Of a stretch of DNA of 34,596 bases, positions 1 through 18,593 are shown in pieces; the stretch's first letter is position 1; each line of letters begins with the position of its first letter. The stretch is from assembly GCA_016934315.1 (NCBI GenBank), contig JAFGSY010000034.1:1-34596 (forward strand), written 5' to 3'. Position numbers and translations under genes: made by a program. The notes beneath the pieces are model-generated. The model did not search any database, was not told the DNA's origin, and saw nothing but the letters and a program-made list of their open reading frames with translations. The DNA comes from Candidatus Anaeroferrophillus wilburensis (lineage in GTDB: Bacteria > Desulfobacterota > Anaeroferrophillalia > Anaeroferrophillales > Anaeroferrophillaceae).

Positions 1-149
1 CCCGCATTGCCGGTGATCGTCACCCCGGGCAGGTTGAAAAGCTTTTGCCAGAGAGGCAGGTTGTAGACCGTTGCCAAGGCGAGGGCTGCAAGCATGGCGA
101 TGAGGGTGCTATTGTTCTTGAAAACGAGTGCTGCAGAGCAAGTCTGCAG
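1..149 (-). CDS. Probable phosphoethanolamine transferase (EptA-like), N-terminal fragment
   Basis: The reverse strand carries an open frame that leaves the window at base 1. It encodes one hydrophobic membrane segment (LIAMLAALALATVYNLPLW) followed by QKLFNLPGVTITGN. This resembles the start of the DUF1705 membrane domain of EptA-type lipid A phosphoethanolamine transferases, inner-membrane enzymes that decorate lipopolysaccharide. The start is unclear: the frame is closed by a TAA at 156-158, and the only starts before the membrane helix are non-ATG (a CTG at 147-149); the first ATG (93-95) lies inside the helix. No ribosome-binding site is visible. A terminator-like hairpin sits directly at this 5' end. 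The gene may therefore be 5'-truncated or use an unusual start. Identity rests on about 45 residues and is moderate; any polytopic membrane protein is an alternative. Confidence 0.45.
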   Translation of the reverse strand, partial: MQTCSAALVFKNNSTLIAMLAALALATVYNLPLWQKLFNLPGVTITGNA

Positions 150-157
150 CTTTTTTT
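130..157 (+). terminator. Terminator-like hairpin with T-run
   Basis: A perfect 8-bp inverted repeat (GCTGCAGA at 130-137, TCTGCAGC at 143-150) with a 5-base loop is followed by seven T residues (151-157). This is the form of a Rho-independent terminator read on the + strand. It lies at the 5' end of the leftward EptA-like fragment, so no rightward gene is visible for it to end; it could block antisense transcription or mark an old junction. Confidence 0.45.
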
Positions 158-436
158 AACAGGCTGAAAAAAGGGAAGAGCGTTTCGTTCATGTTTCAGG
201 TCGCTGGTTCAAAGGTGAACTTTTTAAGCTTGGATTGTTCAGTGGAATTTTGTTCTAGCATGGGTTTTATGAAGGGATTGAGAAGGGGAACAGTTTTTTC
301 GGGGCCGGGATTTGGCTTGACACCCAAGGTCAATTTCTCCTACAGTTCCTCAGTGAGAAGTATTGTTTGAGCAAACAAGCCTGCTTTCCAGGATATTACT
401 TCCTGCAGCCGGGCAATGGTGTGAATTGGGGATAAT
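158..436. other. Intergenic region with a possible promoter for the downstream ligase
   Basis: No convincing gene is seen. A sigma-70-like promoter can be read as TTGACA at 317-322, an 18-base spacer and TACAGT at 341-346, pointing to the ligase at 437. The 80-residue open frame from 128 has no ribosome-binding site or recognisable sequence and is treated as chance. Confidence 0.35.
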
Positions 437-1936
437 GTGACAGTGTCAGATATCGAACTCATCAAGCTGGCCCGAACGCATGGCAGCTCGGTGGCGGTGC
501 GTACCGGTTCCGCCGAACATACGTATGCAGACCTCCTGTTTCGCTCCGGGCAGGTTGCCCTGCGCCTGCTGGGCGATGATGGCGAGGATCTGCGCGAGGT
601 CCGGGTTGCGTATCTTATGCCAGCTGGTTTTGATTACATCGCTGTCCAATGGGGAATCTGGCGTGCCGGTGGCATCGCCGTTCCGCTTTCCCTTTCCGCA
701 ACGGAATCGGAACTCGAATACACCTTGACCGATTCGCAGGCAGGGTATGTCGTCGTTACCCGGGAGCTTGCCCAGAAACTCAGGGGATTGTGCGATCGGC
801 TCGCCATCCCTTTGCTCATCGTTGATGAAATGTCCGCCCAACCGGCCGCGCAATCTCTGCCTGCACTTGCCGCGCATCGCCGCGCGATGATCCTTTACAC
901 CAGCGGCACAACCAGCAAACCCAAAGGCGTCGTCTCGACGCATGTGAATATCCAGGCGCAAATCGAAACATTAGTTGCCGCCTGGTCCTGGCAGGCAGCA
1001 GACTGCATTCCTTTGTTCCTGCCACTGCACCATATCCACGGCATTATCAACGTGATGTCCTGCGCGTTGTGGGCCGGGGCGACAATTGAACCGTTCACGC
1101 ACTTTGACATGCAGACGATGTTGCGCCGCGTTGCTGATGGCGCGTACACGGTGTTTATGGCGGTGCCGACGATCTACGTGAAACTTATTCAGGAGCTTGA
1201 ATCGCTTGCCGCTGCTGAGCGGGAACCGATTGTCGCCGGATTCGGCGGCATGCGATTGATGGTTTCCGGGTCCGCTGCGCTTCCGGCCAGTGTGCACGAT
1301 GCCTGGACAGCGCTGACCGGGCAAAAACTGCTGGAGCGCTACGGGATGACCGAAATCGGCATGGGGTTGTCGAATCCCTACGACGGTGAGCGGCGGCCGG
1401 GTGCGGTGGGGCAGCCCCTGCCGGGCGTTCAGGTTCGGTTGAAGATGGAAAAGGGTGAGGTGGTTGCCGGCGAAGGCGAGCCCGGTGAAATTCAGGTGCG
1501 TGGTCCATCGGTGTTTCTGGAGTACTGGAATCGGCCGAAGGTCACGGCGGCTTCCTTTGACGATGGTTGGTTTTGCACTGGTGATATGGCGATTGTCGAG
1601 GACCGTTATTATCGCATCATGGGCCGGCAGTCGGTCGACATCATCAAAAGTGGAGGCTATAAGCTGTCAGCTTTGGAAATCGAAGCGGCGCTGCTCGACC
1701 ATCCGGCTATTTGCGAATGTGCAGTTGTTGGGATTGCGGATGACCTGTGGGGGGAGACGGTGGCGGTGGCGGCGGTGCTCAACAGCGGCTGTGAGCTCGA
1801 TCCGGAAACACTCCGAACCTGGTGTGCAGAACGGCTGTCCAAGTACAAGATTCCCAAGAAATTCCTGCAGGTCGACAGCCTGCCCCGAAACGCAATGGGC
1901 AAAGTGACCAAGCCTGCCGTCCGAGACTTCTTCTGA
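437..1936 (+). CDS. Malonyl-CoA synthetase-like acyl-CoA ligase (MatB/ACSF3 type)
   Basis: A 499-residue member of the ANL adenylate-forming superfamily. These enzymes activate a carboxylic acid with ATP to an acyl-adenylate and transfer it to coenzyme A. Visible motifs in order: the phosphate-binding loop YTSGTTSKPKG (about 154-164), LPLHHIHGIIN (about 195-205), typical of the malonyl/methylmalonyl-CoA synthetase branch, the ERYGMTEIG aromatic-binding motif, FCTGD, and the C-terminal PRNAMGKV lysine motif. Length is normal and all core motifs are intact. The start is GTG at 437, preceded by GGGGA at 428-432; the ATG at 435 is followed at once by TGA. The gene stands alone and its codons are richer in G/C than its neighbours', which suggests recent acquisition. 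The substrate (malonate or methylmalonate) is inferred from the family only. Confidence 0.85.
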   Translation: MTVSDIELIKLARTHGSSVAVRTGSAEHTYADLLFRSGQVALRLLGDDGEDLREVRVAYLMPAGFDYIAVQWGIWRAGGIAVPLSLSATESELEYTLTDSQAGYVVVTRELAQKLRGLCDRLAIPLLIVDEMSAQPAAQSLPALAAHRRAMILYTSGTTSKPKGVVSTHVNIQAQIETLVAAWSWQAADCIPLFLPLHHIHGIINVMSCALWAGATIEPFTHFDMQTMLRRVADGAYTVFMAVPTIYVKLIQELESLAAAEREPIVAGFGGMRLMVSGSAALPASVHDAWTALTGQKLLERYGMTEIGMGLSNPYDGERRPGAVGQPLPGVQVRLKMEKGEVVAGEGEPGEIQVRGPSVFLEYWNRPKVTAASFDDGWFCTGDMAIVEDRYYRIMGRQSVDIIKSGGYKLSALEIEAALLDHPAICECAVVGIADDLWGETVAVAAVLNSGCELDPETLRTWCAERLSKYKIPKKFLQVDSLPRNAMGKVTKPAVRDFF

Positions 1937-2236
1937 CCCAGGCTCATGCGGTTAACGGCAACGAGATTCGGCCCTGTGCGGTATGGCCTTTCCCGTGCTA
2001 TCTTTTGGGGTTTCCCAACAAGTACATTGCGGACAGGATAGTACTGTTGCTTCAACTGAGCGATTCCTGAGCTGGGAAGCTGTCGGGGGTCTGGTTCCCG
2101 CTCATTCTCGCCGGCTCCGAGGAGTCCGCTGCGAATCACCATCCGGGTGATTCGTTCGGCGCCCAAAGCCGCTCAGAACCAGCCCCCCGACAGCTTCGAG
2201 CAGTTTGCATCGTTTAGCTACGGTGTTGGTCCAACT
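1937..2236. other. 300-base gap between convergent genes, mostly structured DNA
   Basis: No gene could be supported. The main content is a nested inverted repeat (2076-2197), listed separately. The open frames that cross it have no ribosome-binding sites and no family resemblance I can see. No T-run follows the repeat on either strand, so it is not an ordinary terminator for either flanking gene. Confidence 0.5.
2076..2197. repeat. Nested imperfect inverted repeat (22-bp arms with an inner hairpin)
   Basis: The arms at 2076-2097 and 2176-2197 are reverse complements over 22 bases with a single mismatch. Inside the 78-base interior a second perfect 9-bp stem (CGAATCACC at 2132-2140, GGTGATTCG at 2146-2154) forms a small hairpin. 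As single-stranded DNA or RNA the whole would fold into a long stem carrying an inner stem-loop. It could be a remnant of a mobile element, a bidirectional transcription barrier between convergent genes, or a structured RNA. The function is unknown. Confidence 0.65.
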
Positions 2237-4072
2237 TCAGTCTGCAGCTTGTATCAGGCCCAGTTCCGCCAGCTTTTCCTTGGTTGGGATGCCGTTTCGA
2301 TCCCAGCCCCTCAGGGTATAATAGCGGTCCAGCATGGCATCCAGATCTTCCTGGGGACAGTATCTTCCTGCCGCCGGGCCATCCGGAATCGGGTCATGCA
2401 TGACCCGATAGGGGAGCGTGTCATCTTGCCGGTTTCTGCCGCGCCTGACATTGATTAACCGTTCCAGGTTGTAGATGCGTTCCCCGGCCTTCTCAAGTTC
2501 CCCAACCGTGAAGTCCCAGCCGGTCACCAGATTGACCATGGTTGCCAGCTGGTCACTGATCAGGGCTCCCAGGCCTTTTTCGACCGTGAAACGGCAGATG
2601 ATCAGCGAATCGGCCACGGCGCAGGAAGCCTGACTCTTGATCATGTAGGCCGGCTGGGGCTCAAATCCCGGATCACTATCTGCGGGCAGCGCATAATTCG
2701 GTCTGCCATCCTGGTGGCTGCCGCCCCTGGTGGAGGTGGCGTAGGCCAGCGACATCTCCCGCAAGCCCCGGGCGGAATGGCCGGCGCATTCAAGCCCCTG
2801 GCTGGTGTACAGGTATTTGTATGCATCCCGGCCGAACTTTTCCGCCAGCCGCCGGGAACCCAGGGCGAGATGTTTGCCAACTCCTTCCATCAGTGCCGTT
2901 TTCCGGATCAGATCGACCATCGCCTCACCGTCATCAAAGGCTACCTGGCCGCCAAGTTCTGCGGTTGAGATGATGCCTCTCTCCAGGCATTCGGCCACAA
3001 ATGCCAGGGTGACCCCCATGGAAATGGTATCAATGCCCATCAGGTCGCACAGGTGATTGCCGTTGACGATGGAGGCAAGATCACCGTTGTCCATCATGGT
3101 GCCCAGGGCGTAGAGGGTTTCGTATTCGGGCATTTTGACGCTTTCCCCCGCGTAGGCCCCCGCCGGAACCCGGACATGCTTCCCGCAGGCGACCGGACAG
3201 CCGAAACAGGCGGTGTCTTTTTCCGTGTAGTTTTCTTTGATTAGTTTACCGCTGATGGCATCGGCATGGGCGAAGGTCTCCCGGGTATTATTGCGGCTGC
3301 AGAGGACGCCCCTTTCATTGACCATCGTCAGGATGGAGGGGGTCCCCTGGGAGGAGAGGAGGGCCGTATTCTTTTTTAAAACCGCGGCCTGCTCTTTGAG
3401 GAAGTTCCGGAGGGCTTCAGGGTTGGCAATGCTGGTTTTTTTTGTTCCCTTGACGATAATGGCCTTCAGGTTCTTGGCCCCCATGACGGTGCCCATGCCG
3501 CCCCGGCCGGCGGTTCCGAACCTGCTGCCGCCCCCGAAAATGATATTGGCAAAGAGGACGCCGTTTTCAGCTGCCGGCCCGATAGCCGCGCAAACCGATC
3601 CCTTGCCCGTTTCCTTTGCCAATGCCTGTATGGTTTCCTCGGTATTTTTTCCCCATAAAGCCGAGCAGTCTTTCAGCTCGCCACCCTTTTCAGTCACCAG
3701 AAGGGCAACCGGTTTTGGTGATTTTCCGGTGATATGGATGGCATCGAAACCGGTTCTTTTCTGGACAACGGCGAAATTGCCGCCATAATTGGAGTCAGCA
3801 AAACGGTTGGTGTACGGGGAAATCGTCGCCACATGCCCCCGGCTGCTGCCCCAGACCGGGGTGTCCGTCACGGGTCCGGTGGTGAAGACAAGGGCATTTT
3901 CCGGAGCATCGGGACTGAGGTCGCCGGGGACCGTTTCATAAATCAGCTTTGCCGCCAGACCATTGCCGCCGAGAAACATTTTTGCAAACGTTTCATCGTA
4001 AGATTCCGTCCTTATTGCGCCCGTGCTTAGATTCACCTTGATAATGCGGCCATGCTGTCCGGATAGTTTCAT
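2237..4072 (-). CDS. Aldehyde ferredoxin oxidoreductase family protein (tungsten/molybdenum)
   Basis: A 611-residue AOR-family enzyme, colinear with the family and of usual length. Such enzymes carry a bis-pterin W or Mo cofactor and one [4Fe-4S] cluster, oxidise aldehydes to acids and pass electrons to ferredoxin in the cytoplasm. The four cluster cysteines are visible: C289, C292 and C296 in CFGCPVAC, and C493 in IICRF, matching the known spacing of the archaeal enzyme. The N-terminal pterin-binding domain begins GRIIKVNLSTG and includes the GGSRFGTAGRGGMGTVMGAK region. It is the last gene of a leftward cluster with the aconitase X genes, but is separated from the YdhR-like gene by 268 bases holding a MITE-like repeat, so it may have its own promoter. 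The natural substrate cannot be told from sequence. Confidence 0.95.
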   Translation of the reverse strand: MKLSGQHGRIIKVNLSTGAIRTESYDETFAKMFLGGNGLAAKLIYETVPGDLSPDAPENALVFTTGPVTDTPVWGSSRGHVATISPYTNRFADSNYGGNFAVVQKRTGFDAIHITGKSPKPVALLVTEKGGELKDCSALWGKNTEETIQALAKETGKGSVCAAIGPAAENGVLFANIIFGGGSRFGTAGRGGMGTVMGAKNLKAIIVKGTKKTSIANPEALRNFLKEQAAVLKKNTALLSSQGTPSILTMVNERGVLCSRNNTRETFAHADAISGKLIKENYTEKDTACFGCPVACGKHVRVPAGAYAGESVKMPEYETLYALGTMMDNGDLASIVNGNHLCDLMGIDTISMGVTLAFVAECLERGIISTAELGGQVAFDDGEAMVDLIRKTALMEGVGKHLALGSRRLAEKFGRDAYKYLYTSQGLECAGHSARGLREMSLAYATSTRGGSHQDGRPNYALPADSDPGFEPQPAYMIKSQASCAVADSLIICRFTVEKGLGALISDQLATMVNLVTGWDFTVGELEKAGERIYNLERLINVRRGRNRQDDTLPYRVMHDPIPDGPAAGRYCPQEDLDAMLDRYYTLRGWDRNGIPTKEKLAELGLIQAAD

Positions 4073-4110
4073 GTCTCACACTCGTTACTGTTTTTTTCGG
4101 AAGATATTTA

Positions 4111-4281
4111 CGTTGATGAACTCGTAACAACTGGCAAAGAGCTTTGAAAACCGGATGGCACAGTAACGGCTCCAGATTCGAGGCAAGCAAAACCTGAGGA
4201 ATGAGGCATACCTATAAGTGCAACCCCGTGACGAAGGTTGCAGCTTAACGAAGAAGGTGGAGTTGTTACGAAGCCATCAGC
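4111..4281 (-). repeat. MITE-like dispersed repeat, copy A
   Basis: About 170 bp that match, in opposite orientation, the region 18426-18593. The two copies share CTCCACCTTCTTCGTTAAGC (as reverse complement within 4243-4264 here) and a second block covering TCGAATCTGGAGCCG (reverse complement near 4167-4185), with weaker similarity between. The ends are 21-base imperfect terminal inverted repeats, 17 of 21 matching and including an 11-base perfect stretch TCGTAACAACT. Small size, terminal inverted repeats and no coding capacity fit a miniature inverted-repeat transposable element or a mobile intergenic hairpin. A short open frame that starts inside it and runs into the AOR gene on another frame is treated as spurious. 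Confidence 0.8.
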
Positions 4282-4340
4282 GTTGGGGGCAACTCAATAA
4301 GAGAGCTTCCCATGGTCAACGGTCATGCTTCTGCTGACTG

Positions 4341-4682
4341 CTAATCGCTCATCCAGGAATCATCAGCGCTGGTAATCTCTTTTTTTGAAAGTATCAGGCC
4401 CGTTTCGACTATGTCCCAGGTTGGCACGCAGCCATATTTTTCAGGAACGACTTTCAGCCAGACATCCGACTTCACGTACTCCTCCACCGCTTCCGCGGAC
4501 TTGAATATGTACAGGGCACCCCATTCCTGCTTCTCCTGATTGCACCACCAGCACTTGAATTCAAGCGATTCCATTGCCATAAACTTGGGATAACTGCCCA
4601 TGAACCATTCCCGCATCTCTGCGGTCGTTTTCATTTTTCCGGGTTTAAATACACACCTTAAAGCACGTTTTTCAGTTTTCAT
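4341..4682 (-). CDS. YdhR-like small protein, dimeric alpha/beta-barrel (ABM) fold
   Basis: A 113-residue protein. The region EWGALYIFKSAEAVEEY followed by VVPEKYGCVPTWDIVETG matches the pattern of YdhR and related antibiotic-biosynthesis-monooxygenase-fold proteins: a strand ending in a G-x-Y-x-F turn, an amphipathic helix, then a last strand. Such proteins form dimers, and some oxidise or rearrange aromatic or polyketide-like compounds without a cofactor, but most are uncharacterised. There is an unusual CWWCNQ stretch near residue 47. The start at 4682 is chosen because AAGAGG lies about nine bases upstream; another ATG at 4697 would include that site in the coding region. It lies 68 bases downstream of the aconitase X small-subunit gene, on the same strand, so co-transcription is likely. 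Function unknown. Confidence 0.65.
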   Translation of the reverse strand: MKTEKRALRCVFKPGKMKTTAEMREWFMGSYPKFMAMESLEFKCWWCNQEKQEWGALYIFKSAEAVEEYVKSDVWLKVVPEKYGCVPTWDIVETGLILSKKEITSADDSWMSD

Positions 4683-4750
4683 TGTCAACCTCTTCATTCA
4701 GGGTAATAGTTTGTTTGTCTCAACCCCAACATTGCCGTGGTAAAAAGCGG

Positions 4751-5149
4751 CTAGGCTATTTCAATAAGCCCTTTTGTGCCAAAGACCTTGATCTGGTCGC
4801 CGGTCTTGATCACGGCGACGATGTCCTCGACAAAAGAGTCCATCATCGGAATGTTACTGACCATGGCACATTCAACCGTTATCGGGTCGGCTTTTGGACA
4901 GAGAATGGCCGCCGGTGCGTTGCCCATTTTTTTGGCGTGATACATGGTTATCGCCGCGGTTACCGCTCCCTTGGCGGCCGGGATCACCAATACTTTATCA
5001 CCGATTTTTTCCCCATAGAGGGGATGTCCCTTGATCCCCAGAGTGCCGGTCTTGGAATCAAAATCAGTGGTGAAATTAAAGGGTTCCTGCAACACAAACG
5101 CCTCAGCTTCCACATTGCCGCTATTTATTGTTCTTCCTTTCAGCTCCAT
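4751..5149 (-). CDS. Aconitase X small (swivel) subunit, DUF126
   Basis: A 132-residue protein with the DUF126 swivel-domain pattern: an N-terminal strand pair, FDSKTGTLGIKGHPLYGEKI, then KVLVIPAAKGAVTAA and APAAILCPKADP. It pairs with the large subunit encoded just upstream to form aconitase X, a [Fe-S] dehydratase family that includes cis-3-hydroxyproline dehydratase and archaeal phosphomevalonate dehydratase. The start at 5149 is fixed by GGAGG six bases upstream and by a TGATG overlap with the stop of the large-subunit gene, indicating translational coupling. The loop that in family members I know reads roughly G-S-S/C-x-G-S, and holds the catalytic serine, here reads G-A-V-T-A-A (about 61-66). 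Activity may therefore differ from the characterised enzymes. Confidence 0.85.
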   Translation of the reverse strand: MELKGRTINSGNVEAEAFVLQEPFNFTTDFDSKTGTLGIKGHPLYGEKIGDKVLVIPAAKGAVTAAITMYHAKKMGNAPAAILCPKADPITVECAMVSNIPMMDSFVEDIVAVIKTGDQIKVFGTKGLIEIA

Positions 5150-6399
5150 CAAGATCCTCCCTGCCAATTTCCGCTTATGGCCGCATTGATGCAATGTTCA
5201 ATTTCACCGACTACCACTCTTATTCTGCCTTTTGAAATGATCGAAATATAGTGGGCTGTTTTGAAGGAATTGGTTGCCACGGTTTGAACAGCATCTGGAA
5301 TGGGACAGTCAGGGATGGCTGCCATGCACGCCCGTGAGATAACCCCCCCGGCCTTCTCAATGGTTGTGGTGCAACCCATCGTCTCAGCCAGATCATACAA
5401 CTGATGAGCGGTGCCGATCCATAACCCTTGATTTGCGCCAACTTGTCTGTTCTCCAGTATATCTGCGACCTTTTTCAGTTCCTGGATGCTGCAATGGGGG
5501 CAACCTAAGATGACCAGATCGATCTGTTCCGTTTCTTGATAGAATTTTCCCCGAGTTTTTTTAATTTCTTTGCTGCCGATCTGGACCACTTCTTTGGGCT
5601 GCTTATCTCCCAGGGCGGTTTGCACGTTCGGTGCTTCGGGTGTAATGCCGACTAGATGGCACATACTGACGGCGCCTGAAGTTGAAATCGGATGCAGAAG
5701 ATATTTCAACCGGTCGAAGACAATGTCACGGCTCAGGCCGGTGATCGCAACATTTCTTTCCTGGGCAATACCGCCGATGTAGTATCCTATAGCCCCGTAA
5801 TCAGAGGTCGTCAGCGAAGCCGTGTCCAGATCTTTAATATCAAACAAGATTTCGGCATACCGGTTTTCATCTAAAAACAGCCCCCAATCGGGAGCTCGCC
5901 CGGTGATGGCGATCGCCATATTGACCACCGCACCGTCTCGGTTTTGCCTTGCGCCAACGATAGAATTGACAAATAACTGCGTACTGCTGCCGAACCAGGA
6001 AACATAGTCGTCCTTTCTCGGGAAATTCCCGGTGTACATCGGCACACAGGTAAAGGTTTGGAAAAAACCGAGGCGGGAATAGATTGCCATTCTTCTTTCA
6101 TGATCGCCATTTCGCGGGATGCAATGTTCCTTTGCGATGCCCATCTTCTCATAAGCCAAAGGATCACAAAGTGACATGAACGGATGTATCGTCGTGAACG
6201 TTTTTGCCTGATCCACCCCTTCGGTCAAATCTTCCAGCAGGTCCAGGGGAAAAGCATTAAAAACGTGTGCGCTGGCAACCTTAACCAGTCTGTCGGCACC
6301 AAAGGCTTTGCCATACTTGATGAGAAAGGTGATGCATTTTTCCATGCCAGGACCATGTTTCCCCGTGGCCATGGCCTCTTCTTCCCTTGTCAAAATCAT
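5149..6399 (-). CDS. Aconitase X catalytic subunit, DUF521
   Basis: A 416-residue protein covering the whole DUF521 catalytic domain of aconitase X. It starts MILTREEEAM, a common beginning in the family, and contains FVNSIVGARQNRDG (about 143-156), SYG-type substrate loops and cysteines at GCPHCS (C300, C303) and in RACMAAIPDC that are candidates for iron-sulfur ligands. Enzymes of this family remove water from 3-hydroxyproline or phosphomevalonate; the substrate here is unknown. The start at 6399 is preferred because GGAGGAGGG precedes it; the frame stays open to 6465 and would overlap the HTH gene. It overlaps the small-subunit gene by one base. With the AOR and YdhR-like genes it suggests a dehydration-then-aldehyde-oxidation catabolic route, which is inference. 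Confidence 0.9.
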   Translation of the reverse strand: MILTREEEAMATGKHGPGMEKCITFLIKYGKAFGADRLVKVASAHVFNAFPLDLLEDLTEGVDQAKTFTTIHPFMSLCDPLAYEKMGIAKEHCIPRNGDHERRMAIYSRLGFFQTFTCVPMYTGNFPRKDDYVSWFGSSTQLFVNSIVGARQNRDGAVVNMAIAITGRAPDWGLFLDENRYAEILFDIKDLDTASLTTSDYGAIGYYIGGIAQERNVAITGLSRDIVFDRLKYLLHPISTSGAVSMCHLVGITPEAPNVQTALGDKQPKEVVQIGSKEIKKTRGKFYQETEQIDLVILGCPHCSIQELKKVADILENRQVGANQGLWIGTAHQLYDLAETMGCTTTIEKAGGVISRACMAAIPDCPIPDAVQTVATNSFKTAHYISIISKGRIRVVVGEIEHCINAAISGNWQGGS

Positions 6400-6457
6400 T
6401 GACAACCCTCCTCCCCCTTTTTTTACGTTCCATAATGCCCCCAATTTCTGTTCCTTG

Positions 6458-6667
6458 TCAGGCATGTTGTTTCTTGTTCTTGGTCTGATCAGTGGCCGCT
6501 AGCCACTGATCAATACAATTCTTTCTGAAACGCCAGTGCTTGCCAATCTTCTGGCCCGGGATGGTCCCTTTCCGGGCTAATTGATAACGGATTGACTTGG
6601 AGATCTTCAGGTAGGATGACAGCTCATCAATGGCCAGTCTACTGTCATACTTTTCGGTCATTATCAT
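6458..6667 (-). CDS. Small helix-turn-helix (excisionase/MerR-like) DNA-binding protein
   Basis: A 69-residue protein with the compact winged-HTH of the excisionase (HTH_17) type: LAIDELSSYLKISKSIRYQLARKG, then the wing GQKIGKHWRFRK, then a helix NCIDQWLA. Such domains bind DNA as local regulators or recombination directionality factors. It is the first gene of the leftward aconitase X cluster, ending 58 bases before the large-subunit start, so a local regulator is likely. A perfect 14-base palindrome (6707-6720) lies between it and a possible -10 box, and may be its operator. No integrase is nearby, which argues against a phage excisionase. ATGs exist at 6667 and 6661; neither has a clear ribosome-binding site. 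Confidence 0.75.
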   Translation of the reverse strand: MIMTEKYDSRLAIDELSSYLKISKSIRYQLARKGTIPGQKIGKHWRFRKNCIDQWLAATDQTKNKKQHA

Positions 6668-6706
6668 GTACTCTGCGCGGAGACAGGCTGCAATCTGTAT
6701 CAGTTC

Positions 6707-6782
6707 CTAGCAGTTGCTAGACGCTTTGGTCAAGGAGTTTCACTATAAAAAATATGGGTATTTCCACATGGGGAAGCATGTG
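6707..6782 (-). promoter_or_regulatory. Promoter/operator region of the aconitase X cluster
   Basis: On the reverse strand a TATAGT box (6747-6742) is followed by a perfect inverted repeat CTAGCA-GT-TGCTAG (6707-6720) about 22 bases further on, where a repressor would overlap the transcription start. A second inverted repeat, CACATG (6765-6770) and CATGTG (6777-6782), lies where the -35 box would be, which is otherwise poor. The arrangement fits control by the small HTH protein or an outside regulator. This is inference from spacing and symmetry. Confidence 0.4.
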
Positions 6783-6821
6783 CGAAGGGAGGCCTCAGTC
6801 AAAGGAATGTGTTGGACTGTC

Positions 6822-6862
6822 TGCAAATAAAAAACCCCGAAATCCTTGCTAGGACTCGGGGT
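6822..6862 (-). terminator. Rho-independent terminator of tRNA-Met
   Basis: On the reverse strand the stem ACCCCGA/TCGGGGT (arms at 6856-6862 and 6834-6840) with an inner TCCT/AGGA stem is followed by TTTTTTATTTG. It lies 35 bases downstream of the tRNA 3' end on the same strand. Confidence 0.9.
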
Positions 6863-6896
6863 CTCGGAAGTAACCGGACGTTGCCGGAATGGTTGT

Positions 6897-6973
6897 TGGT
6901 GGCGGTGCAGGGATTTGAACCCCGGACACTACGGATATGAGCCGTATGCTCTGACCACCTGAGCTACACCGCC
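6897..6973 (-). tRNA. tRNA-Met (CAT), elongator type
   Basis: The reverse strand folds as a 77-base cloverleaf with an encoded CCA end. The acceptor stem is GGCGGTG/CACCGCC followed by A and CCA. The D arm is GCTC...GAGC, the anticodon stem TACGG/CCGTA closes the loop CTCATAT with anticodon CAT, and the T arm holds TTCAAAT. A CAT anticodon can also be tRNA-Ile2 after lysidine modification. The general sequence resembles elongator tRNA-Met genes of related bacteria, and the first acceptor pair G-C with a standard D arm excludes initiator tRNA. The choice between Met and Ile2 is probable, not proven. Confidence 0.93.
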
Positions 6974-7003
6974 TTCTCTAATGAATTCAAGCGAAAGAGG
7001 GCC

Positions 7004-7034
7004 GTTATATATCGATTTTCCCCCCCTTTGTCAA
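7004..7034 (-). promoter_or_regulatory. Strong sigma-70 promoter for tRNA-Met
   Basis: On the reverse strand a consensus TTGACA (7034-7029), a 17-base spacer and TATATA (7011-7006) are followed by the GC-rich stretch CGGCCC near the expected start. A GC-rich discriminator is typical of stable-RNA promoters under growth-rate control. The mature tRNA begins about 25 bases downstream. Confidence 0.8.
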
Positions 7035-7078
7035 CCAGTTTCAACAATTGCTGGCATCTCTTCAAAGAGTTTTTCCTG

Positions 7079-7594
7079 TTAGAGGGAGAGGAGCGAAAAG
7101 ACTGCTTCACCGGCCAGACGGGTTCTGCCCTTTAGAGCTGCGAGTTCGGCCAGGAAGGCGCATTCGATAATGTTTCCCTGCATTTTTTTCACCAGTTTGA
7201 TGACCGCTTCCACCGTGCCGCCGGTGGCCAGGATATCATCGGCGATCAGGACCCGCTGGCCGGGTTTGATGGCATCTTTGTGGATTTCGAGGATATCGGT
7301 GCCGTACTCCAGGGTATAGCTTTCCTGAAACGTTTCATGGGGTAGTTTGCCGGGTTTGCGCACCAGCACGACGCCGGTGTTAAGCTTATAGGCTAGGGCG
7401 GCACCCATAATAAACCCCCGGGCTTCAATGCCCACTACCACGTCAATCTTTTTGTCAAGGTAGCGGTGTCCCATCAGGTCCACCACCCGCTGGAAAGCCG
7501 TGGCGTCGGCCAGCAAGGTGGTGATATCCTTGAAAACAATGCCGGTTTTAGGGAAGTCGGGGATGTTGCGAATGACTTTTTTAAGATCTTCCAT
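7079..7594 (-). CDS. apt: Adenine phosphoribosyltransferase
   Basis: A 171-residue cytoplasmic purine-salvage enzyme that converts adenine and PRPP to AMP. Family features: the start [21 protein letters not shown], the [12 protein letters not shown] loop, RKPGKLP, and the PRPP-binding motif [13 protein letters not shown]. Length is typical and the sequence is complete. It lies upstream of the tRNA gene on the same strand, but the tRNA has its own promoter in the gap. The start at 7594 is the only reasonable ATG; the ribosome-binding site is weak. Confidence 0.97.
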
Positions 7595-7927
7595 TGCCGT
7601 CTCAGAAGGATTGAACGAGGTTGAAATCCCTCACTGTATATCGTAATTTTTTTCCTTGAGGCAAGCTATTTTTCCCTGGCTACCCCGATGAAGTTCTTTG
7701 TAAACAGGCAATGATCTGATTAAGCGGTTGACAGGAGGAAAAGCCAGAGTGTACATAAGCCCATTGGGAAACCGTCATTTGCCGGATCAACGATGGCAAA
7801 GGCCATTTCGACACTATCGAACAGCCATCCGGTTATGGTTGATTATTACTACTGGCAGGCAGCTGCCCTGCGGATATTCCTCTGATGTTTCCGGTGGGGA
7901 TTACTTTTCTACCAATAGTTTCTGACC
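7595..7927. other. Intergenic region between divergent apt and transpeptidase genes
   Basis: No recognisable gene. An AGGAGG at 7733-7738 precedes a GTG at 7749 that opens a 58-codon frame ending at 7925, three bases before the transpeptidase start. The product (begins MYISPLGNRHLPDQRW) resembles nothing I know, and the spacing is long, so it is not called as a gene. A leader peptide coupled to the next gene remains possible. Confidence 0.35.
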
Positions 7928-18425: not shown

Positions 18426-18593
18426 CTTGATGGTTTCCCGGCAACTCCACCTTCTTCGTTAAGCGGCAACCTTCATTACTGCGTCGTACATACAGTACGC
18501 TTCACTTCTCATATTTTGCTTGCTTCGAATCTGGAGCCGCTGCTGAGCCATCCGATTTTTGAGGATTAAGCCGATTGTTGCGAGTCCATCAAT
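18426..18593 (+). repeat. MITE-like dispersed repeat, copy B
   Basis: The partner of the repeat at 4111-4281, in the opposite orientation. Identical blocks lie at 18443-18464 and 18514-18539, and the ends carry TTGATGG and CCATCAA as short terminal inverted repeats. The middle contains a GTAC-centred dyad (GCGTCGTACATACAGTACGC). This copy lies between two divergent genes, the other between two co-directional genes, so both are intergenic, as expected of a MITE. Confidence 0.8.

Follow-up and report, generated by a model that had tools for sequence, protein, structure and literature searches.

An aconitase X with replaced dehydratase residues, from a clade linked to UxaA-type genes, and its probably unrelated aldehyde oxidoreductase neighbour in Candidatus Anaeroferrophillus wilburensis

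The window analysed here is the entire contig C34 (34,596 bp) of Candidatus Anaeroferrophillus wilburensis, whose genome (G000) comprises 2.7 Mb in 52 contigs and is 98% complete. Its minus strand carries, in this order, genes for a helix-turn-helix (HTH) protein of the HTH_17 type, the large and small subunits of an aconitase X (AcnX), a YdhR-like protein and a putatively tungsten-type aldehyde oxidoreductase (AOR). The first-pass annotation had named these leftward genes and read them as one cluster for the dehydration of a hydroxy acid and the oxidation of an aldehyde. Pfam matches and the intact state of every reading frame confirmed the gene identities and orientation, and that interpretation as a whole is partly supported. 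The explanation that we favour, with moderate confidence, is that the AcnX genes form a unit belonging to a clade linked to UxaA-type genes, and that AOR next to them is unrelated. The AcnX clade belongs to a known family, as an uncharacterised variant, and the gene neighbourhood as a whole appears to be mostly a product of chance.

AcnX relatives were retrieved by scanning contigs with an alignment query, an earlier single-protein query having given none, and the neighbourhoods of the best 80 of the 533 loci encoding a relative were surveyed. In a tree of the large subunit (58 rows, LG+C20+F+G4), the window protein groups with 7 UxaA-linked AcnX (support 100/97) inside a wider clade of 10 rows, 8 of which are UxaA-linked (99/98), and the characterised enzymes TkAcnX of Thermococcus kodakarensis and AtAcnX lie on the opposite side of the 99/98 branch. 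The tree proposed in the first-pass annotation thus places the window AcnX near neither the hydroxyproline nor the phosphomevalonate dehydratases, the two affiliations envisaged there besides a new clade, and puts it in a well-supported clade apart from both. In 8 of the 9 clade relatives that were fetched, at 44% to 50% identity and from Bacillota, Thermodesulfobacteriota, Pseudomonadota and one Thermoplasmatota metagenome-assembled genome (MAG), AcnX is immediately preceded by genes for a UxaA-type large protein and a small SAF protein; this pair was found at none of the other, more distant AcnX loci, 71 in number. The large protein of this operon is of the UxaA/GarD type, with the GD_AH second and C-terminal domains. 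Tripartite ATP-independent periplasmic (TRAP) transporter genes lie near most UxaA-linked AcnX, mostly with AcnX ahead of them, and an FCD/GntR regulator is common. A full-text search of an available collection of papers returned none that combines three or more of the terms for this gene set (aconitase X, DUF521, DUF126, altronate dehydratase, UxaA and TRAP transporter).

The window AcnX falls inside this clade, and UxaA, SAF and TRAP genes do not adjoin it. A UxaA and SAF pair is encoded elsewhere in the genome, on contig C21, with neither AcnX nor TRAP genes seen in the surrounding 19.5 kb. Among 395 genomes of the phylum, a UxaA-type protein (E ≤ 1e-100) was found in 2, the window genome and G210, both of which carry this AcnX clade; the clade itself is present in 3 of the 395, and the overlap expected by chance is about 2/394 when the focal genome is left out. 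This co-occurrence is only suggestive, because few genomes are involved and one of them, G210, is at the same time the source of an operon example (L103).

Several loci of the clade have additional features. In Syntrophaceae UBA6078, two different AcnX large/small pairs flank the UxaA genes (L078, 4605-6247 and 9001-10643). Genes for a corrinoid protein, a RACo-like activator and a URO-D-type methyltransferase adjoin the UxaA-AcnX-TRAP operon in L079 (13847-17663) and L031 (13992-15014), and in these two loci only they hint at a methylated substrate, or at demethylation, in some hosts.

The window protein has the hallmarks of its family, with catalytic and swivel domains above their cut-offs (Table 1) and all three cluster cysteines present. 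In the solved AcnX enzymes, as described in PMC8184944, Ser62 of the small subunit (Ser70 in the fused enzyme) is the general base, Glu129 and Lys361 of the large subunit (Glu292 and Lys530) bind the leaving hydroxyl, and the iron-sulfur (Fe-S) cluster of TkAcnX is held by Cys110, Cys283 and Cys342; the S70A substitution leaves AtAcnX with almost no activity. Hydroxyproline and phosphomevalonate dehydration are the only AcnX reactions shown, and the same source describes subclasses IIc to IIf as uncharacterised and without the landmark residues of either activity. The window large subunit keeps C118, C300 and C358, which correspond to the three cysteines of TkAcnX, together with K380, Y384 and S138, and has Gly137 at the position of Glu129; the small subunit has Ala62-Val63 at the positions of Ser62-Thr63. 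All fetched clade relatives have Gly for Glu129 and Gly for Ser62, and Ser occupies the base position in 65 of the 77 aligned small subunits.

Thus, in both its catalytic Ser/Glu residues and its placement in the tree the window AcnX departs from the known dehydratases. Of the phrase "dehydratase of the aconitase X family" in the first-pass annotation, the family assignment stands, and the activity is doubtful: because the catalytic Ser and Glu of the two characterised enzymes are replaced, and because S70A is almost inactive, the dehydratase label should not be carried over. With Ser62 and Glu129 gone, the window AcnX probably does not perform the known AcnX dehydration. We expect it to use a different base, for an isomerisation or some other lyase step. 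Most likely it is an Fe-S enzyme that binds a carboxylate in a hydroxy-acid route yet to be described. Its clade presumably corresponds to one of the subclasses IIc to IIf. A 44% identical AcnX relative on plasmid pVEu of Vibrio europaeus (L181, 9001-14288) also has Gly, in the motif KGGT; beside it lie a second gene for enolase, an AzlCD exporter and a 561-aa protein whose UGSC match falls below threshold, and no UxaA was found within 9 kb of it.

The linkage of AcnX to AOR and to the YdhR-like gene is not conserved. The YdhR-like gene is absent from all 80 AcnX loci surveyed and AOR of the window type occurs at none of them, with 2 loci having merely a distant (28%) AFOR homologue 3 to 5 kb off. 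AOR orthologues 72% to 81% identical are present in 4 genomes, 2 of the same family and 2 of the same order, with no AcnX and no YdhR around them, and AcnX was found at E ≤ 1e-20 in none of 21 same-family or same-order genomes. There are 7 AFOR_C matches in the window genome, so an AOR beside any given operon is unsurprising. The co-occurrence search proposed in the first-pass annotation therefore gives the result that it had itself set against the three-enzyme cluster: the genes are scattered in relatives, and the catabolic route drawn through AcnX, YdhR and AOR is not borne out. We judge AOR, from its orthologues and their surroundings, to be a lineage-native separate gene and probably a chance neighbour of the AcnX unit. 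The protein belongs to the tungsten/molybdenum aldehyde:ferredoxin oxidoreductase (AFOR) family, with AFOR_N and AFOR_C domains above cut-off and a readable CxxCxxxC motif. An Rfam search of positions 1-7800 for regulatory RNA, such as a molybdenum cofactor (Moco) riboswitch before AOR, returned only the tRNA and a chance match. A CGGC-domain protein adjoins the AOR orthologue in 3 of the 4 genomes (L071, 2119-2565; L072, 10404-10850; L070, 6238-6774), and no such gene adjoins AOR in the window.

The YdhR-like protein narrowly misses its Pfam cut-off (Table 1). Its AlphaFold2 model (mean predicted local distance difference test score, pLDDT, 79) has the ABM fold, the closest folds being ABM/YdhR-type barrels, Escherichia coli JW1657 among them, and the model suggests an alpha+beta barrel that would by family be a dimer. 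Homologues 50% to 59% identical occur in six other genomes in varied settings: with a three-subunit molybdenum hydroxylase and a branched-chain amino acid (LIV) transporter, with a nitroreductase and an acyl-CoA ligase, or near an acyl-CoA dehydrogenase or thiolase. A more distant homologue follows TRAP genes on a Desulfolutivibrio plasmid, and a scan of viral contigs gave no match. Since many residues are invariant in the family (K10, R11, K48, W50, W51, E55, W59, E86, K87, Y88 and C90 in the 118-aa numbering), the YdhR-like protein probably functions in binding or catalysis, "mono-oxygenase" being a family name only. In L047 (343-4413) the YdhR-like gene directly follows the genes for the hydroxylase, which is of the xanthine-dehydrogenase type, and the LIV transporter. 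The HTH gene, described in the first-pass annotation as the cluster's own, is indeed present; its tie to AcnX was not seen in other genomes, with a single HTH_17 match among the 80 AcnX loci (L090), about 6.6 kb from AcnX, and it is a possible regulator.

Table 1. Features of the leftward gene group and its border in the window.
Feature	Coordinates	Strand	Evidence
HTH_17 / excisionase-type DNA-binding protein, 69 aa	6458-6667	minus	Pfam PF12728 45.1 bits; TIGR01764 44 bits
AcnX large subunit, 416 aa	5149-6399	minus	Pfam PF04412 352.7 bits (cut-off 31.5); phmmer against TkAcnX large 6.6e-53
AcnX small (swivel) subunit, 132 aa	4751-5149	minus	PF01989 82.2 bits (cut-off 27); phmmer against TK1248 1.5e-17
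YdhR-like protein, predicted dimeric alpha+beta barrel, 113 aa	4341-4682	minus	PF08803 26.1 bits, below the cut-off of 27.1
AOR, AFOR family	2237-4072	minus	PF01314 398 bits, PF02730 224 bits; PDB 1aor 6.6e-118
Dispersed repeat copy of about 167 bp, MITE-like (miniature inverted-repeat transposable element)	4113-4279	minus	Genome-wide matches and alignment; between YdhR and AOR
tRNA-Met(CAT), upstream border	6897-6973	minus	ARAGORN

Three gene starts were corrected. AcnX large begins at ATG 6399 rather than 6465, as indicated by the ribosome-binding site, a strong GGGGGAGGAGGG box, and by alignment with relatives that share the same first residue; it therefore does not overlap the HTH gene. 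The YdhR-like gene, first called at 4341-4697, begins at ATG 4682. AcnX small begins at ATG 5149, which overlaps the stop of AcnX large (TGATG), an arrangement indicating that the two are translationally coupled. The spacing from AcnX small to the YdhR-like gene on the same strand is about 68 bp, so that AcnX large, AcnX small and the YdhR-like gene may share one transcript. G+C content overall and at third codon positions is 49% and 54% in AcnX and 58% and 68% in AOR, a difference to which we give little weight because native window genes span 50% to 55% and 53% to 66%. An AMP-forming acyl-CoA synthetase gene is convergent with AOR (437-1936, plus strand); its top NCBIfam scores are to acyl-CoA/malonyl-CoA synthetases, under the cut-offs. 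Acyl-CoA ligases also lie near several more distant AcnX loci.

The YdhR-like gene and AOR are separated by 268 non-coding bp, 167 bp of which are filled by the dispersed repeat. This element has imperfect terminal inverted repeats of about 22 bp and 40 matches across the genome, the copy in this gap included, the best of them at 80% to 91% identity; their alignment has sharp ends, TTGATGGCTTCGTAACAACT...AGTTGTTACGAGTTCATCAA, and Rfam gave no match to it. A second copy lies in the window at 18428-18592 on the plus strand.

The HTH gene is followed upstream by tRNA-Met, which is syntenic with apt in 4 genomes of the same family (G001 to G004). The next conserved gene in these genomes encodes a response-regulator protein, directly next to the tRNA in G001 and G002 and after other DNA in G003 and G004 (about 8.7 kb in G004). 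The copy of this gene in the window genome (75% identical) is found at the start of contig C28. The DNA downstream of tRNA-Met is thus a variable spot among family members, and the segment in the window is most simply read as inserted DNA, 8 kb or more in length. An integration scar in the form of a duplicated tRNA 3′ end was sought in the window and in the G004 locus and found in neither, so a tRNA-targeting integrase is not demonstrated. The start of C28 also holds a frame-broken sulfatase/phosphoglycerol-transferase-like sequence before the response regulator.

In the explanation that we favour, positions 4341-6667 would be a small unit of the HTH_17, AcnX large, AcnX small and YdhR-like genes in the variable spot past tRNA-Met, with AOR behind it as a gene of its own, native to the lineage and divided from the unit by the MITE-like repeat. 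By homology with the solved AcnX enzymes, the two AcnX subunits would form a heterodimer with its Fe-S cluster on Cys118, Cys300 and Cys358, in which Ser138, Lys380 and Tyr384 may grip the carboxylate of the substrate. The clade would act alongside the UxaA-type dehydratase, serving one step in the uptake and breakdown of a carboxylic acid that carries hydroxyl groups, and in the window organism AcnX may partner the UxaA pair on C21. We propose further, tentatively and with less than even confidence, that the operon, widely transferred among Bacillota, Thermodesulfobacteriota, Pseudomonadota and the Thermoplasmatota MAG, couples TRAP transport and a split UxaA-type dehydratase to an AcnX heterodimer in which the Ser and Glu are replaced and which would run a reaction other than the two known dehydrations.

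A number of observations weigh against this explanation, and some of them would equally fit an unlikely alternative, namely that the window AcnX is a decaying or recruited remnant, the split half of a UxaA-AcnX-TRAP operon that is inactive or serves as an Fe-S scaffold in sensing or binding. The Ala-Val pair at the base and carboxylate positions is unique to the window among the 77 aligned small subunits, so that function may be fading, and the end branch of the window AcnX is longer than any other in its clade. It stands apart from TRAP genes and from the UxaA pair, which is unlinked to it on C21. The C21 UxaA and its UBA6078 counterpart share 89.6% identity, and the AcnX large subunit is just 48% identical to that of the UBA6078 operon, which means that AcnX either evolved fast or arrived separately; separate origins are possible, and a clade of the window and UBA6078 AcnX, that is, a joint origin, was not rejected by the approximately unbiased test (p-AU 0.088). 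Besides, the co-occurrence with UxaA rests on very few genomes, UxaA is missing from one genome with the AcnX clade (G174), and the far border of the segment lies off the contig, which stops at window base 1. Nonetheless, two intact frames, retained translational coupling, a strong ribosome-binding site and the presence of all three cysteines, the Lys and the Tyr speak against decay; moreover, the base is Gly clade-wide, so its loss is older than the window genome.

The route outlined at the beginning, one operon in which AcnX dehydrates a hydroxy acid, AOR oxidises a later aldehyde with reduction of ferredoxin, YdhR assists and the HTH protein regulates, draws on the shared strand and order of the genes, their intact frames and an AcnX-YdhR spacing that allows co-transcription. 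We hold it to be improbable, as its linkage is conserved neither in the 80 AcnX loci nor in 7 YdhR contexts nor around the AOR orthologues, the 7 AFOR_C matches ease chance adjacency, the repeat and the 268-bp gap precede AOR, and AcnX is without the dehydratase residues. Slightly less credible still is a new two-component enzyme of AcnX and the YdhR-like protein, in which the barrel would supply the missing proton-transfer chemistry: the adjacency on one strand, the invariant Lys, Cys, Trp, Glu and Tyr of the barrel family and its recurrence in acid and acyl-CoA catabolic clusters are compatible with such a unit, but no second AcnX-YdhR adjacency appears in the 80 loci, and the neighbours of the YdhR relatives are a xanthine-dehydrogenase-type enzyme, acyl-CoA ligases or TRAP genes, with no AcnX among them.

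What makes the locus interesting is the AcnX clade, together with the UxaA partner and the missing dehydratase residues that mark it. The UxaA-type partner, the TRAP transporter and the defined missing residues make one uncharacterised AcnX subclass testable by ordinary enzymology. The locus also warns against annotating such AcnX genes as dehydratases and against building pathways from the neighbourhood in a single genome.

Compared with known systems, the YdhR-like model shares the fold of E. coli JW1657 YdhR (PDB 1wd6; template modelling (TM) scores 0.62/0.74), although the protein is 1 bit under the Pfam cut-off of the family and the homologues found are from genomes of the same phylum. 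AOR matches Pyrococcus AOR (PDB 1aor) over its full length and is an ordinary member of its family. The UxaA-type partner of the AcnX clade resembles the UxaA/GarD family of altronate and galactarate dehydratases in its GD_AH second and C-terminal domains and in the SAF domain, carried here on a separate protein, and differs in being shorter and split over two proteins. (R)-sulfolactate sulfo-lyase SuyAB also belongs to this family; it is a possible identity for the UxaA pair, whose sole NCBIfam match was a weak one to galactarate dehydratase (152.6 bits against a cut-off of 730.85). The window AcnX resembles AcnX types IIc to IIf in being a two-subunit bacterial AcnX without the landmark residues of known dehydratases, and an operon with UxaA-type enzymes is not mentioned for these types in the part of PMC8184944 available to us. 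AtAcnX, the cis-3-hydroxyproline dehydratase, shares its domains and an alignable large subunit with the window AcnX, which is not fused, has AtAcnX Glu292 and Ser70 replaced, and scores 205 bits against the NCBIfam equivalog for the AtAcnX type (cut-off 700); the published S70A mutation, as reported in PMC8184944, corresponds to the natural Ala of the window protein. TkAcnX, a type IIb mevalonate-5-phosphate dehydratase (PDB 7cnr/7cns), belongs to a separate clade and has Glu129 and Ser62/Thr63 where the window AcnX has Gly and Ala/Val, but it likewise consists of separate large and small subunits, its large subunit aligns over near full length, and its three cluster cysteines, Lys361, Tyr365 and Ser130 are conserved in the window AcnX.

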